DNA from: an uncultured Hyphomicrobiales bacterium
GTDB taxonomy: Bacteria > Pseudomonadota > Alphaproteobacteria > Rhizobiales > Devosiaceae
Reading direction: 5' to 3'
Assembly: GCA_903842455.1 (NCBI GenBank)
Contig: CAIMLX010000179.1
Coordinates: forward strand, 1 to 53,306
DNA: 53,306 bases
In this document: one piece after another, positions 39,256-45,103 of the stretch
Layout of the letters: each line of letters opens with the position of its first letter
Numbering within the stretch: position 1 is the first letter of the stretch
Notes under the pieces: generated by a model
Told to the model about the DNA's origin: nothing
Seen by the model: the letters and a program-made list of their open reading frames with translations, nothing else
Databases searched by the model: none
Position numbers and translations under genes: made by a program

Positions 39256-41442
39256 TTGGCGGAGGACCGGCAGATTTTTCAGCGTGCGCTTGCTATTGTC
39301 GTTTGCGGCTTCCTCTGCGGGCTGATGTCGGTGGCATTGGCGCTGGGCAATACCGCCTTGCTCGCCCGTGGCGAACTGCTGCCGCTGCTCACCCCCATCG
39401 GCAGCGCGATACTGTTCGCCTCCGCGATCCTGCCGATTGCCGGCTCGCTGCTTAGCACCATGGCCGGGCAGGTAACCACCACGCAGGAAATCGCCGTCGT
39501 GGCGCTCGCTGCCGTCACCGGCGCGACCGTCGCCGCCTTGGGCGCCGACCCAGCCGCGCTGCTGCCCACCATTCTGGTCACCGTCGGCCTGACAACAACA
39601 CTATCGGGCGCGACCATGTTCGCGCTCGGCGCGTTCCGGCTGGGCCGCATCACGCGCTACGTGCCGTATCCGGTGTTCGCCGGTTTTCTCGCCATCACCG
39701 GCTGGTACCTCATCACCGGCGGCATGGAGACCATCATCGGCGGGCACCTGGGGCTCCACCGGCTGCCCGAATTGGCCGACCCCAACACGTCGCTGAAGGT
39801 CGGTCTCGCCTTTGGTTTCGTGGCGGTCGTCGTGCTCGCCAACTGGCGCTGGCGATCCGGCGTTGCCCTGCCGGTCGCAGCGCTCGTTGCCATCGTCGTC
39901 TTCAACGTCGTCACCGCCGCGGCGGGACTATCGCAGCCTGAGCTGGAAGCGTTGGGATGGCTGGCGGTCGTTCCGCCCACTGGCCTCGGCTGGCCTCCGG
40001 TCGGCATCGACCAGCTTGCTGTGGTCGACTGGACCGCCGTCGGCGCAGGACTGGTGTTTGCGCCGTTCGCGGTGATCATCACCACTGCCGGTGCGATGAT
40101 GAATGTCAGCGGCATCGAACTCGACACGCGCTCCGACGTCGACCTCAATCTCGAACTGCGTTCGATGGGCACCGGCAACATCCTCGCTGGACTGGTCGGC
40201 GGTATCCCAGGGTTTCCGGCCGTCTCAACGTCGTTGCTTGCCGAGCGGCTCGGTGCATGGCACCGGGCTACCGGCGTCATTGCCGGCCTTGTGGCGTTCG
40301 CCGCGCTGGTCTTCGCGCCGCTGATCTTCTCGCGCGTGCCGGTGCCTATGTTGGGGGCGCTACTGCTCTGGATCGGGGTGTCTCTCACCATGGACTGGCT
40401 GCTGCGCCCCGTCAGCACTATGCGCCGCTCCGAATACGCCATCATCCTCGTCATCCTTGGCGTCAGCATCGCCGCCGGATTGCCGGCCGGCATCGGTATT
40501 GGGCTGCTGGCGGCGCTGGTGCTGTTCGCGGTCGAGTATGCCCGCGTCGACGGCGTCCGCTTCATTGCCTCGGGCCGCGACTATCATTCCCGCGCAGTGA
40601 CCCAGCAGCGGCGATCAGAGCTGGCCGGACTTGGCGACGCGATCGCCGTCATCAAACTCGCCGGCTTTATCTTCTTCGGCACGTCCGACCGCATCGTGCA
40701 GCGCATCGTCGCCCAATCGAGGACCGCGGACGGCGACAAGTGGTACGCCATCGTCGACTTCAGTCGCGTCACCGGTTTCGATTCATCGACCGTGCTGAGC
40801 TTTGAGCGGCTGCGCCGGGTCGCCGAGCGCGACGGCTTTCGCGTCGTGTTCGCCAGCCTCGGACCACTAGCCGATCGCCTCAGCGATGGCGGGCTTGATA
40901 TCCGAAGCGCCCCGTTGCATTTCGCCGACGATCTTGAGGCCGCGCTCCGCTGGGCCGAAAACGACCTGATCGGCGCCGCCGAGGAGGTGAGGACGGAAAT
41001 TGTACCGGCCGCGACGTCTCTGGGCGAGTTGCTCTGCGACCGCGTCCTGGCCGACGCCATGTTGCCTTACCTGGAGCGGCACGAATACCGCGCCGGCGAG
41101 CGGCTGATCCTGCAGGGAACGGAGGCCAACGATATCTTGGTCGTCGAGGCCGGCAGCGGCGAAGTCATGCTCGAGGCGCGGGATGGCTCGCCTGTTGTGG
41201 TGCTGATGGGATTCGCGTCTGGCACCATCCTGGGTGAGGTCGCATTTTATGGCCACGAGCCTCGGTCGGCTTCGGTACTGGCTAGGACCGACGTGGTCGC
41301 GTTCAAGCTGAGCCGTGACGCGCTGGCGCGCATCGAGCGTGACCGCCCCGAGGCGGCGTCGGCGTTCCACCGCGCCCTCGCCCGGGTTCTGGCGCAGAGG
41401 CTGCAAAGCGCCAACCGGCTGATCAACGTGCTCGCCGGCTGA
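39256..41442 (+). CDS. SulP-family transporter fused to STAS and cyclic-nucleotide-binding domains
   Basis: 728 residues with a TTG start. About 10-14 membrane helices (residues 8-440) form a SulP anion transporter core (GRITRYVPYPVFAGFLAITG, GGIPGFPAVSTSLLAERLGA); a STAS domain follows (about 455-565, WYAIVDFSRVTGFDSSTVLS), then a Crp-type cNMP domain (about 590-715) whose phosphate-binding cassette keeps Glu661 and Arg670 (LGEVAFYGHEPRSASVLA). Probably an inner-membrane sulfate, bicarbonate or dicarboxylate transporter gated by a cyclic nucleotide; the substrate cannot be read from sequence. Confidence 0.88.
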   Translation: MAEDRQIFQRALAIVVCGFLCGLMSVALALGNTALLARGELLPLLTPIGSAILFASAILPIAGSLLSTMAGQVTTTQEIAVVALAAVTGATVAALGADPAALLPTILVTVGLTTTLSGATMFALGAFRLGRITRYVPYPVFAGFLAITGWYLITGGMETIIGGHLGLHRLPELADPNTSLKVGLAFGFVAVVVLANWRWRSGVALPVAALVAIVVFNVVTAAAGLSQPELEALGWLAVVPPTGLGWPPVGIDQLAVVDWTAVGAGLVFAPFAVIITTAGAMMNVSGIELDTRSDVDLNLELRSMGTGNILAGLVGGIPGFPAVSTSLLAERLGAWHRATGVIAGLVAFAALVFAPLIFSRVPVPMLGALLLWIGVSLTMDWLLRPVSTMRRSEYAIILVILGVSIAAGLPAGIGIGLLAALVLFAVEYARVDGVRFIASGRDYHSRAVTQQRRSELAGLGDAIAVIKLAGFIFFGTSDRIVQRIVAQSRTADGDKWYAIVDFSRVTGFDSSTVLSFERLRRVAERDGFRVVFASLGPLADRLSDGGLDIRSAPLHFADDLEAALRWAENDLIGAAEEVRTEIVPAATSLGELLCDRVLADAMLPYLERHEYRAGERLILQGTEANDILVVEAGSGEVMLEARDGSPVVVLMGFASGTILGEVAFYGHEPRSASVLARTDVVAFKLSRDALARIERDRPEAASAFHRALARVLAQRLQSANRLINVLAG

Positions 41443-41502: not shown

Positions 41503-42507
41503 TCAGGCGGCCTGAAGCCCGAACGCCTCGGCCAGCAGCCGGTAAGAACGCAGCCGCATGTCGTAGTCCCACGCGGTGGTGGTCACCATCACCTCGTCAG
41601 CGCCCGACTCGGCGACCTTTGCCTCGATCTCGCGCTTCACCGTCTCCGGCGATCCGACGATCCAGAGCTTGCTCTGGTTCTCGATGATCCGTCTCTGGTG
41701 GTCGGTATAGACATGCCGAGAGGCCTCTTCGGGCGACACCAGCTTGCGGATTTCGCCCGACATGAACAACGCCCACATCAGCTGCTGCGACTGCGCGAGG
41801 AACTGCGCCTCCTCGTCGGTCGGCGCCACCAGCGCCGACAGCGCGATGATCGCATGCGGCTTTGGAAACGCGTCGGTCGGGGTGTGCGCGGCGCGATAGG
41901 CGGCGAAGGCCGGTGCGGACGGCGTGGCGGAAAAATGCGCTGCGAACGAATAGCCGACGCCGAGCTGACCCGCCGCCTGCGCGCTCGCGCCCGATGAGCC
42001 GAGCAGCCAGATCGGCGGCAACGCCACCCGCTCCGGCGCTACCGTGACCGCCGCAAAGGGATGGTCGGGGGCGAAATTGCCTTCCTCGAAGGCGAGCATC
42101 TCGGCCAACTCCTGCGCGAAATACTCGCCGCCGACCGAACGCAGCGCCGACAGCGTCCGCCCATCACTGCCACCGGCCCGGCCGATACCGAGATCGATGC
42201 GGCCGGGGTTCAGCCCGTTGAGCGTGCGATACGTCTCGACCACGCGCAGCGGCACATGGTTGGGCAGCATGACGCCACCCGAGCCGACGCGGATGCGCTT
42301 GGTGTTGGCGGCGGAGGTGGCAATCAGCACCTCGGGCGAACTCGATGCGATCGACGGCATGCCGTGATGCTCGGCATACCAGACGCGAGTGTATCCCAGA
42401 TCATCGCCCAACCGGGCGAGGCGCGTGATCTGCTTCAGCGCATCAGGGGTGGAGGTGCCTTCCGACACCGGGGCGAGGTCGAGGATCGAAATGGGGAGGT
42501 TGGCCAT
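41503..42507 (-). CDS. Luciferase-like monooxygenase (LLM) family flavin oxidoreductase
   Basis: 334 residues starting MANLPISILDLAPVSEGTST. The TIM-barrel LLM signatures YTRVWYAEHHGMPSIASSSP, RIRVGSGGVMLPNHVPLRVV and RIDLGIGRAGGSDGRT are complete, typical of the FMN-dependent subgroup. Natural substrate unknown. The ABC exporter gene lies 50 nt upstream on the same strand and may be co-transcribed. Confidence 0.9.
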   Translation of the reverse strand: MANLPISILDLAPVSEGTSTPDALKQITRLARLGDDLGYTRVWYAEHHGMPSIASSSPEVLIATSAANTKRIRVGSGGVMLPNHVPLRVVETYRTLNGLNPGRIDLGIGRAGGSDGRTLSALRSVGGEYFAQELAEMLAFEEGNFAPDHPFAAVTVAPERVALPPIWLLGSSGASAQAAGQLGVGYSFAAHFSATPSAPAFAAYRAAHTPTDAFPKPHAIIALSALVAPTDEEAQFLAQSQQLMWALFMSGEIRKLVSPEEASRHVYTDHQRRIIENQSKLWIVGSPETVKREIEAKVAESGADEVMVTTTAWDYDMRLRSYRLLAEAFGLQAA

Positions 42508-42557: not shown

Positions 42558-44369
42558 TTACTCCGCCGCCGCCAGCCCCTTCACCAGTTCCCCGGCCTGC
42601 CGCTCGAACAGCCGGCGGTAGATGCCGCCGTCGAGCTTCACCAGTTGCGCGTGCGTGCCTTCCTCGACCACCTTGCCCGCATCGAACACCAGCAGCCGAT
42701 CGAGCGAGCGCACCGTCGACAACCGATGGGCGATCACCAGCGTGGTGCGGCCGACCATCAGCCGGTCCATCGCCTGCTGGATCAGCGCCTCGCTCTCGGA
42801 ATCGAGGCTGGACGTCGCTTCGTCGAGGATCAGCACCCGGGCGTTCGACAGGAACGCGCGGGCAATCGCCACCCGCTGCCGCTCGCCGCCACTGAGCTTG
42901 ATGCCGCGCTCGCCCACCAGCGTCTCGTAGCCCTTGGGCAGCCGCTCAATGAACTCATGCGCGTTGGCGAGCTTCGCCGACTCGATGATCTCGTCGCGGG
43001 TCGCTTCCGGCCGGCCATAGGCGATGTTTTCGGCCAGAGAGCGGTGGAACAGCACCGGGTCCTGCTGCACGATGGCGATCTGCCGCCGCAGCGACGCCTG
43101 CTCGACATCGCGAATGTCCACACCATCGACCGTCACCCGGCCGCCCGACACGTCGTAGAGCCGCTGGATCAGCTTGACGAACGTCGTCTTGCCCGAGCCC
43201 GAATGACCGACCAGGCCGACCCGCTCGCCGGGCCGAATGGTGACGTTCAGGTCCTTATAGAGCGGCCGTGTGTGCGCGCCGTAGTGGAAGTCGACATGCT
43301 CGAACGCGATGCCGCCCGCCGCAATGGCGATCGGCGCCGCGCCCTGCCGGTCGTCGATGCCGAGCGGCTCGTCGTCCAGCCGCACCAGCTCTTCCATGTC
43401 GTTCACCGAGCGCTGCAGATTGCGCACGTGCTGGCCGATATCGCGCAGGTAGCCCTGCAGCACGAGGAAGCTGGTGATGACGAAGGTGATGTCGCCCGCT
43501 GACGCTGCTCCAGCCTGCCAGAGGTAGAGCCCGGCGCCGATGATCGAGATGCGCATCAGCCACAGCAGCGTGTTCTGCACCGTGCCGTTGAAGGTACCGC
43601 GGTGCCAGGTGCGATCGGTGCGGGAGCGCCACTTGTCGAGCACCAGCTTCAGCCGCGATTCCTCGCGCGTTTCGGCGCCAAAGCCCTTCACCACGGCGTT
43701 GCACGAGATGGCATCGGCGAGCGCGCCGCCCATGCGGGTATCCCACATGTTGGCGAGGCTCGCCGCCGGGGCGACCCAGGCGGTCGAGAGCGTCACCGTC
43801 ACGGCGATGTAGATCAGCGAACCGACGCCGACGATCAGCCCCATCAGCGGCCAGAACAGGCCGAGCAGGATGGTCGAGCCGATCAGCATCGCGATCGACG
43901 GCAGAAGCGCGATCAGCACTGTGTCGTTGAGGACGTCGAGGGCCCACATGCCGCGGGTGATCTTGCGAACCGTCGAGCCGGCAAAGGCATTGGCATGCCA
44001 GTCGGACGAAAAGCGCTGCACCCGCTTGAAGGCGTGGGTCACCACGTCGCTCATCATCCGCAGCGTCAGGCGGATGATCAGCATAAAGATGGCCTGGCGC
44101 AGCAGCACCGCCATCAGACCCAGCCCGGCAAGAAACAGAAAGGCGGTCACCGCGCTGTTCCAGGCGATCTCGCTGGTGGCCGCGCCGCTGGCCACGGCCT
44201 CAACGAGGCGGCCGGCAAAGAAGGGCGTCAGCAGGTCGGTGCTGATTTCGCCGAGCACGCAGAGCATGATCACTGCAATGCGGATGGGCTGCTTTTGCCA
44301 GTGCCTGAAGGCGAAGCCAAGAACCTTGGAAAAGGCCTCGGCACGGAAGTCGATCTTGAAACGAGCCAT
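42558..44369 (-). CDS. ABC exporter, fused permease-ATPase (MsbA/LmrA type)
   Basis: 603 residues, half-transporter size. Six membrane helices (about residues 30-310) and an ATPase with Walker A GHSGSGKT (388-395), Q-loop QQDPVLF, signature LSGGE (492-496), Walker B VLILDE (512-517) and H-loop His548, so catalytically intact. It likely exports a lipid or drug as a homodimer. The start at 44369 has a weak ribosome-binding site and is preceded by a 110-nt structured leader and an upstream small reading frame, suggesting expression control at the leader. Confidence 0.94.
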   Translation of the reverse strand: MARFKIDFRAEAFSKVLGFAFRHWQKQPIRIAVIMLCVLGEISTDLLTPFFAGRLVEAVASGAATSEIAWNSAVTAFLFLAGLGLMAVLLRQAIFMLIIRLTLRMMSDVVTHAFKRVQRFSSDWHANAFAGSTVRKITRGMWALDVLNDTVLIALLPSIAMLIGSTILLGLFWPLMGLIVGVGSLIYIAVTVTLSTAWVAPAASLANMWDTRMGGALADAISCNAVVKGFGAETREESRLKLVLDKWRSRTDRTWHRGTFNGTVQNTLLWLMRISIIGAGLYLWQAGAASAGDITFVITSFLVLQGYLRDIGQHVRNLQRSVNDMEELVRLDDEPLGIDDRQGAAPIAIAAGGIAFEHVDFHYGAHTRPLYKDLNVTIRPGERVGLVGHSGSGKTTFVKLIQRLYDVSGGRVTVDGVDIRDVEQASLRRQIAIVQQDPVLFHRSLAENIAYGRPEATRDEIIESAKLANAHEFIERLPKGYETLVGERGIKLSGGERQRVAIARAFLSNARVLILDEATSSLDSESEALIQQAMDRLMVGRTTLVIAHRLSTVRSLDRLLVFDAGKVVEEGTHAQLVKLDGGIYRRLFERQAGELVKGLAAAE

Positions 44370-44478
44370 TGTCTAATGTCCGGACGCGCAGATGACGCAG
44401 CGAACCGGTCCCGATTTAGCGAGGGTGGGAGCCGCAGAAGCGGCAGTCGGGGGACCGCGGAGCAGTCCGGCGCGCGAC
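44370..44478 (-). promoter_or_regulatory. Structured leader RNA of the ABC exporter
   Basis: On the minus strand several complementary segments nest between the upstream reading frame and the ABC start: outer stem CCGGAC/GTCCGG (44465-44470 with 44380-44385); middle stem of 9 pairs with a 2-base bulge (44447-44457 with 44406-44414); inner hairpin GCCGC-TTCT-GCGGC (44431-44444). A further GCGCGC/GCGCGC pairing (44487-44492 with 44470-44475) would enclose the small frame's stop codon and compete with the outer stem. This looks like a cis-regulatory RNA. I vaguely associate its stems with the alphaproteobacterial speF leader family, but cannot verify that. Confidence 0.6.
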
Positions 44479-44532
44479 CTAAAGGAGCGCGCAATCCCCG
44501 AAGGGACGAAGTCGCTTGGTGATATGCATCAT
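44479..44532 (-). CDS. Putative leader peptide, 17 residues, upstream of the ABC exporter
   Basis: ATG-ATG at 44532/44529 preceded by GGGAGGGG at 5-nt distance, one of the strongest ribosome-binding sites in the window. Product MMHITKRLRPFGDCALL, stop TAG at 44479-44481. Its stop codon lies in a potential hairpin loop, and the ABC gene starts 110 nt further on. It is too short to be functional as a protein and is best read as a regulatory upstream frame. Confidence 0.5.
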   Translation of the reverse strand: MMHITKRLRPFGDCALL

Positions 44533-44567
44533 GCCGCCCCTCCCTGGTTCGATCGGACGAGGCAGGT

Positions 44568-44596
44568 CTAATATGCGACAATCCGTTCGGCTGCAA
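44568..44596 (-). promoter_or_regulatory. Sigma-70 promoter for the leader peptide and ABC exporter
   Basis: Read on the minus strand: TTGCAG (44591-44596), 17-nt spacer, TATTAG (44568-44573). The expected start point is about 30 nt before the leader ATG. Confidence 0.6.
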
Positions 44597-44680
44597 CCAC
44601 CGAGCGGTGGGTGACAAGCACATGGCAAGGTTGCCTCCCGACAGCTTGCGCCGGCCGGGAGGCGCTCGTTCAAGTTCGCC

Positions 44681-45103
44681 TCAGGCGACCGGAGCGGGTG
44701 CCCCGCCGCCGAACAGGCCGATGACGAGGCCCTGCACCAGCAGCACCGCCAGCATGTGGCCGCCATCGATGAGCGACAGCTGCCACGGCATGTTCTGGTA
44801 GCGGTGGTTCAGGATCATGGGCGGCAGGACAAAGCCCAGCCACATCACGGCACCGGTCAGCAGGCCGTTCGCCACGTTGACTTCGCCGAAGATCGACCGG
44901 ATCGCCACGGCGAGGACGACCGCCATCACCAGCTCGACGGCGATGCCGATGACATAAGGCACCGGACCAGCGTCGAGCTGGTCCCGGGTCTTGCCGATGG
45001 CAGCCTGCCACTGCCTGGAGAGGCTCGTATACCAGGCTGCGCCTACCGCGAAGCCGGCGATTGTGGCGACTATGGCCGCCACCCAGTTGACGTCGAAAAC
45101 CAT
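44681..45103 (-). CDS. DUF1761-family membrane protein
   Basis: 140 residues from the ATG at 45103. Four hydrophobic helices; VNWVAAIVATIAGFAVGAAW near the start and WLGFVLPPMILNHRYQNMPW in the middle are the DUF1761 pattern. Function unknown. The gap 44370-44680 between this gene and the ABC exporter holds the promoter, leader peptide and structured RNA listed separately. Confidence 0.85.
   Translation of the reverse strand: MVFDVNWVAAIVATIAGFAVGAAWYTSLSRQWQAAIGKTRDQLDAGPVPYVIGIAVELVMAVVLAVAIRSIFGEVNVANGLLTGAVMWLGFVLPPMILNHRYQNMPWQLSLIDGGHMLAVLLVQGLVIGLFGGGAPAPVA

Follow-up and report, generated by a model that had tools for sequence, protein, structure and literature searches.

Comparison across relatives indicates that the ABC exporter gene of this stretch is preceded by a real and conserved leader frame, and that what recurs upstream of the gene is the RNA structure around the frame, more than the peptide it encodes. 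The recurrence spans Devosiaceae, Rhodobacterales, Sphingomonadales, Bradyrhizobium, Achromobacter and Steroidobacter. On an evenly balanced judgement, the region 44596-44370 may well be the regulatory leader of the exporter transcript, sensing translation in the manner of toiL or bmrB. The aligned sequences show conservation of the frame, its ribosome-binding site and the hairpins, with weak conservation of the peptide.

The window, by which we mean the whole stretch of 53,306 nucleotides that was analysed, carries leader and exporter on its minus strand (Table 1). An earlier note on this DNA had described a 17-codon frame with one of the best ribosome-binding sites of the window, and this is borne out. 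When the starts of all window frames with 10 or more codons are ranked by strength (n=3517), only 6 are as good as the Shine-Dalgarno (SD):anti-SD duplex of the leader (-11.6 kcal/mol), the leader's own two ATGs counted. Upstream of this start the frame stays open, giving a 95-codon frame (44479-44766, minus strand); the strong-SD start is preferred because the upstream DNA cannot be aligned with that of the nearest relative. In its own genome the leader DNA matches only itself.

Table 1. Features of the putative leader and the exporter gene in the window (positions as in the forward strand).
Feature	Positions	Strand	Remarks and basis
Promoter-like site TTGCAG-N17-TATTAG, weak consensus match	44568..44596	minus	TTGCAG 44596-44591, 17 nt, TATTAG 44573-44568; direct reading
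Leader SD GGAGG, within AGGGAGGGG	44539..44543	minus	duplex -11.6; invariant in alignments A1 and A3
Leader frame MMHITKRLRPFGDCALL	44479..44532	minus	17 codons; ATG starts at 44532, TAG stop 44481-44479
Stretch CGTCCCTTCGGGG, in frame, candidate anti-SD pairing with leader SD (AGGGA:UCCCU, predicted)	44496..44508	minus	
Hairpin GCGCGC...UCC-UUUA-GGU...GCGCGC around leader stop codon	44470..44492	minus	direct reading and fold
Two further small hairpins, C-rich stretch between leader and exporter	44431..44468	minus	minimum-energy fold
Hairpin CCGG...CCGG between exporter GGGA (44412-44409) and AUG	44380..44408	minus	direct reading; recurs in orthologues
ABC exporter of 603 aa; single chain with ABC_membrane and ABC_tran domains (ABCB type)	42558..44369	minus	ATG starts at 44369; domain matches

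The sigma-70-like promoter of the same note stands in part. Its letters are present, and the nearest relative (a D. equisanguinis MAG, exporter 98% identical, leader MMHITKRPRPFGDCALR) keeps TTGCAG and the 17-nt spacer, with TAAGAG as its -10; however, only 7 of 12 consensus bases are matched and a sigma-70 consensus scan of 44200-44750 found no promoter. We regard the site as promoter-like, an assignment based on its being kept in that relative; the transcript would then be expected to start near 44561. Compared over this upstream region, the two DNAs are about 0.5 identical beyond -250 and 0.65 identical between -250 and -200. Nearer to the exporter start, from -200 onwards, identity is 0.82 to 0.94, and it exceeds 0.9 at about -200. 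Identity rises there, and the conserved block thus starts near the promoter-like site. In the Devosiaceae genus g5 (L039, L033 and others) a near-perfect inverted repeat, CGAACGGTTTG-GCTA-CAAACCGTTCG, lies upstream of the leader over the likely promoter -10 and is possibly an operator; the window's counterpart of this site is not an inverted repeat.

The best solved sequence relatives of the exporter are ABCB transporters, Sav1866, Atm1 and MsbA (among the best 60 of 262 matches), and drug export by this protein is possible. Among the NCBIfam matches listed (25 of 187), all fall below the cut-offs. The claim that the exporter follows 110 nt downstream with a poor ribosome-binding site needs some refinement: the ATG lies 109 nt past the leader stop and its start scores -3.2 in the SD duplex measure, but a GGGA is present, set apart from the AUG by an intervening hairpin. 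This arrangement recurs across clades.

Exporter orthologues are found in 17 of the 19 genomes of the genus (the window's own counted). Of the 136 family genomes, 103 have one with an E-value no higher than 1e-150; with the limit at 1e-120, one is present in 61 of the 297 order genomes, some of which belong to the family. The comparison in relatives that had been proposed for the leader was carried out on their upstream regions, and the relatives keep start, stop and frame. Under a rule asking for GGAGG or AGGAG 4-11 nt before the start, a length of 10-32 codons and a start 90-320 nt upstream, 169 of the 219 distinct upstreams of exporter orthologues contain a strong-SD frame (93/101 in Devosiaceae, 76/118 in others), counts that are not independent as the 219 include many close relatives. 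The same rule is satisfied by 150 of 4380 shuffles (3.4%), by 142 of 6000 random windows of real sequence (2.4%) and by none of the seven best-scoring paralogues of the same genome, and a chance frame is ruled out by these three controls. With a short conserved frame, start, stop and SD before the same gene at such a rate (169/219 against 2.4-3.4%), the element has the conserved frame expected of a ribosome-sensing regulatory uORF. Of the 50 upstreams that fail the rule, a weaker SD precedes such a frame in 32, leaving 18 of 219 with none either way. One genus member (L018 in genome G018, exporter 72% identical) is without a leader frame by either rule and has a hairpin predicted before the AUG.

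How much of the peptide is kept can be read from close pairs of leaders. The 295 substitutions counted over 49 independent close pairs include 102 synonymous changes against 85.7 expected, with no excess in the other two frames (61 against 71.6 and 72 against 79.4). By codon position the leader substitutions number 81/90/124, against 96/99/100 expected. Indels, counted on condition that the frame is present (in both pair members for the stricter count), follow the frame: in the 39 closest pairs all 4 indels within it are of 3 nt, against 5 of 25 that are multiples of three in the flanking leader, and in 62 pairs the multiples of three amount to 5/7 within the frame and 12/79 in the flanking leader. 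An earlier count that included distant pairs gave 13/44 in frame and 28/181 outside, and was blurred by alignment noise. By the weak synonymous excess, a purifying signal specific to this frame, and by the indel pattern, the frame is kept and the peptide only weakly constrained; both are no more than indirect hints that the leader may be translated. Within the genus, eight more members have RPRLAG or RPCLAG leader peptides and others differ, with the same GGAGG-ATG.

The exporter start is structured: a hairpin ending 6-12 nt before the exporter AUG is found in 157 of 206 orthologues, against 25-29% of the controls (1025 of 4120 shuffles; 1144 of 4000 random genomic ATGs), and an SD-like sequence often lies 5' of it. 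A hairpin in the spacer between SD and AUG is known from T4 gene 38 type starts. The exporter start resembles these in having a hairpin between an SD-like sequence and the AUG, and differs in that its hairpin spans several bacterial orders with changing sequence. In Rhodobacterales, 6 of its 7 pairs have changed on both sides, with 93.8% of cells paired.

Covariation was counted in three alignments: A1 (the window's genus, 10 sequences), A2 (14 Rhodobacterales) and A3 (49 of the 65 g5 leaders). Cells changed on both sides number 32 in A2 (13.1 in shuffles) and 103 in A3 (40.1), above all 500 shuffles in either case, for a subset of RNAalifold helices whose structures come from the same alignments, which favours them, and with shuffles that ignore relatedness. 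In A2 two of five measures are not clearly above the shuffles, of which 10/500 and 155/500 score as high. For A1 the covariation is slight (7 against 3.4; 5 of 500 shuffles reach it). Hairpins also lie at the leader stop. That of the window is formed in the nearest relative too, where its loop reads GUUA and a U-A pair is restored; hairpins around the stop in Devosiaceae correspond to A3 helices 2-4 (76-85% paired), and Rhodobacterales have a hairpin after the stop (77.8% paired). The stop itself is TAG in 124 of 169 leaders, most commonly in the context TAGGTC (28/99).

From these elements a course of events can be proposed, in which transcription, translation, stalling, the direction of regulation, a part for Rho and drug export would all be suppositions of the model. 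The promoter would give rise to an RNA on which the first event would be translation of the 17-codon frame with its very strong ribosome-binding site. This frame would sit among hairpins over its own start, at its stop and between the exporter SD and AUG. Freely moving ribosomes would complete the leader and the exporter would stay low, whereas translation inhibitors would slow or halt ribosomes within the leader, where these would keep hairpins open, so that more exporter is made. The increase would be brought about through translation of the exporter and possibly, in addition, through exclusion of Rho from the C-rich stretch past the leader stop. The quantity sensed would be ribosome movement, not one nascent peptide; such sensing fits because the frame is kept, the peptide is nearly free, hairpins lie at start and stop and the exporter start is structured. 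Sensing of translation inhibitors by this putative leader is plausible. More tentatively, and with some doubt on our part, the locus could represent an undescribed, widespread kind of sensory leader, in which ribosome movement on a short frame, its sequence nearly free, would be linked to output of an ABC exporter. The AUG of the exporter would be reached across the conserved SD-AUG hairpin, and it would be the folding of this hairpin, not its unfolding, that makes the start usable.

Folding under ribosome footprints was applied to 51 leaders hand-picked from the 169, of which 49 were scored. Accessibility of the exporter SD shows no consistent change over these 49 sequences (means 0.217 free, 0.236 with the footprint at the start, 0.261 in the middle and 0.215 at the stop), and L224 is the only one with a clear switch. 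For the window's sequence a mid-leader footprint raises the expected pairs of the exporter hairpin from 0.4 to 9.6; in the nearest relative no footprint effect on this hairpin is seen (5.7-5.8 expected pairs in all states). A four-segment erm-like switch was considered and rejected: it looked clear in five Rhodobacterales leaders, its 5' segment is absent in the other nine of 14, and the footprints have no consistent effect. The in silico footprint test thus does not support a general switch, and function, trigger and direction of regulation are inferences.

Rho may take part because the stretch past the leader stop is C-rich, with means of 37% C, 25% G and 14% A over 99 leaders and C above G in 96 of them. 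It might be argued that leader translation does nothing else than gate Rho-dependent termination in this stretch, with translation of the exporter itself unswitched, and a terminator-like hairpin with a U-run, seen by eye in the post-stop stretch of g5, would agree with this. Nonetheless, C also exceeds G in the first 60 nt of the exporter (83/99) and upstream of the leader (75/99), and we consider gating by Rho as the whole explanation unlikely.

The earlier note had pointed to Lys-Arg-Leu-Arg-Pro and Cys-Ala-Leu-Leu-stop as a candidate stall or sensing element. As an element common to these leaders it is not supported: the nearest relative has KRPRP and Cys-Ala-Leu-Arg-stop instead, peptides differ in other genera, and those of the 49 close pairs are only weakly constrained. 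A degenerate DNA search for HITKRLRP in the 136 family genomes returned the window and a single match in G024 (L025, 1501-1523). What could still operate is peptide-specific arrest, in which Lys-Arg-Leu-Arg stalls ribosomes carrying a bound macrolide or ketolide as in ErmDL and thereby frees the exporter start. Arg-Leu-Arg is an instance of the Arg/Lys-X-Arg/Lys arrest motif of ErmDL and other macrolide leaders (PMC8298421); in the nearest relative the pattern survives as RPR, and it is present in 12 of the 16 leaders of the window's genus. Outside the genus the pattern thins out, to 16 of 65 leaders in genus g5 and 33 of 99 in a diverse set; over all leaders it occurs in 60 of 169. It is thus common in the genus and not among diverse relatives, which sets the leader apart from the ErmDL type. 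A macrolide-type motif was rejected as conserved core on these counts, and arrest by a specific peptide appears improbable. Nor did the leader peptides that were compared by eye share a run of any single residue, as would be expected of an amino-acid biosynthesis attenuator.

A further structural element would occlude the start of the leader. The SD:anti-SD helix is 98.8% paired in the 14 Rhodobacterales, and in g5 the leader SD is paired by the 5' UTR in 92.6% of cells; these SD-occluding helices covary little because they are nearly invariant. Within the frame an anti-SD motif is found in 54 of 99 leaders against 28.2 expected, 47 of the 54 at codons 6-9, with its start in reading frames 0/1/2 in 12/19/23 cases. 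Outside the frame it occurs in 16/99 over the 40 nt upstream and in 25/99 over the 40 nt past the stop. This count is a sharper test than the energy of a stem from SD to frame, for which all 169 leaders together differ only weakly from shuffles (mean z 0.92, in favour of the stem; 21% of the leaders reach P at or below 0.05). Support for occlusion is weaker in the window itself, where CGTCCCTTCGGGG has mismatches in the common register of the genus alignment.

Covarying hairpins, and a 5' UTR that occludes the SD in g5, would also be expected of a ligand- or temperature-sensing RNA (a riboswitch or thermometer) in which the short frame is incidental or a mere translation enhancer. Frame, start and stop are kept despite sequence divergence, however, and at gathering score Rfam yields tRNAs only in the window and 20 relatives, so that we give such a reading little weight. 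Action of the leader RNA in trans through its anti-SD segment, for which the CCTCC-type motif in 54 of 99 leaders and the precedent of rnTrpL in Sinorhizobium (PMC10117765) could be quoted, is most improbable, as there is no sign of a processed small RNA and pairing with the leader's own SD accounts for the motif.

The preferred reading, a leader that senses ribosome movement, has precedents in two known systems. The uORF toiL of E. coli, ahead of topAI-yjhQ, is responsive to ribosome-targeting antibiotics of at least five classes; structure changes at the downstream ribosome-binding site and Rho termination follows (PMC12121999). In either case a short frame lies in a structured leader, and general sensing of translation stress would fit the weak peptide conservation seen here. 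The main gene of toiL is a toxin-antitoxin system whereas ours is an ABC exporter, and in the leaders folded here the frame does not consistently pair with the ribosome-binding site of the main gene. The bmrB leader of bmrCD in Bacillus subtilis likewise combines stem-loops and a leader frame in front of an ABC exporter (PMC4191407). It works via an intrinsic terminator, whereas a terminator scan of 44200-44750 found no terminator-like site, and in this the leader differs from a bmrB-type ribosome-mediated transcription attenuator; in addition, bmrCD comprises two exporter genes against one here. The open-access PMC titles and abstracts searched contain no description of this leader, although supplements of related surveys (e.g. 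PMC8632094, PMC10117765, PMC11109978, PMC6429828) could list it, and sORFs in ABC-transporter operons are mentioned in PMC10117765.

A regulatory uORF is a well-known kind of element; new would be that across several orders it occurs together with an exporter start bridged by a hairpin. Most known drug-sensing leader frames before ABC exporters, bmrB among them, come from Gram-positive bacteria. If the reading is correct, the locus would offer a testable Gram-negative counterpart that recurs widely in Alphaproteobacteria and whose peptide is under weak constraint, with a hairpin bridging the exporter start. It would also provide a handle on the inducer and the cargo of this exporter family.

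Some observations concern the genomic surroundings. Efflux-pump neighbours of the exporter occur at 2 of the 10 loci examined, in Bradyrhizobium (EmrB-type and MATE) and Sphingopyxis (EmrB-type); at the other 8 none was recognised among the neighbours scanned, so that the surroundings give only a partial hint of efflux. In Bradyrhizobium (L199, 917-6275) exporter and leader lie between the EmrB-type MFS pump and the MATE pump. In the window, a gene for an MsnO8-type luciferase-like oxidoreductase (41503-42507, minus strand) follows the exporter after 50 nt with the same orientation, and the two may form one operon; it is equally near the exporter in the nearest relative (L173) and farther away in L174. 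Beyond it, on the plus strand (39256-41439), a SulP-type permease carries, within a single protein, a STAS domain and, at its C terminus, a domain for cyclic-nucleotide binding.
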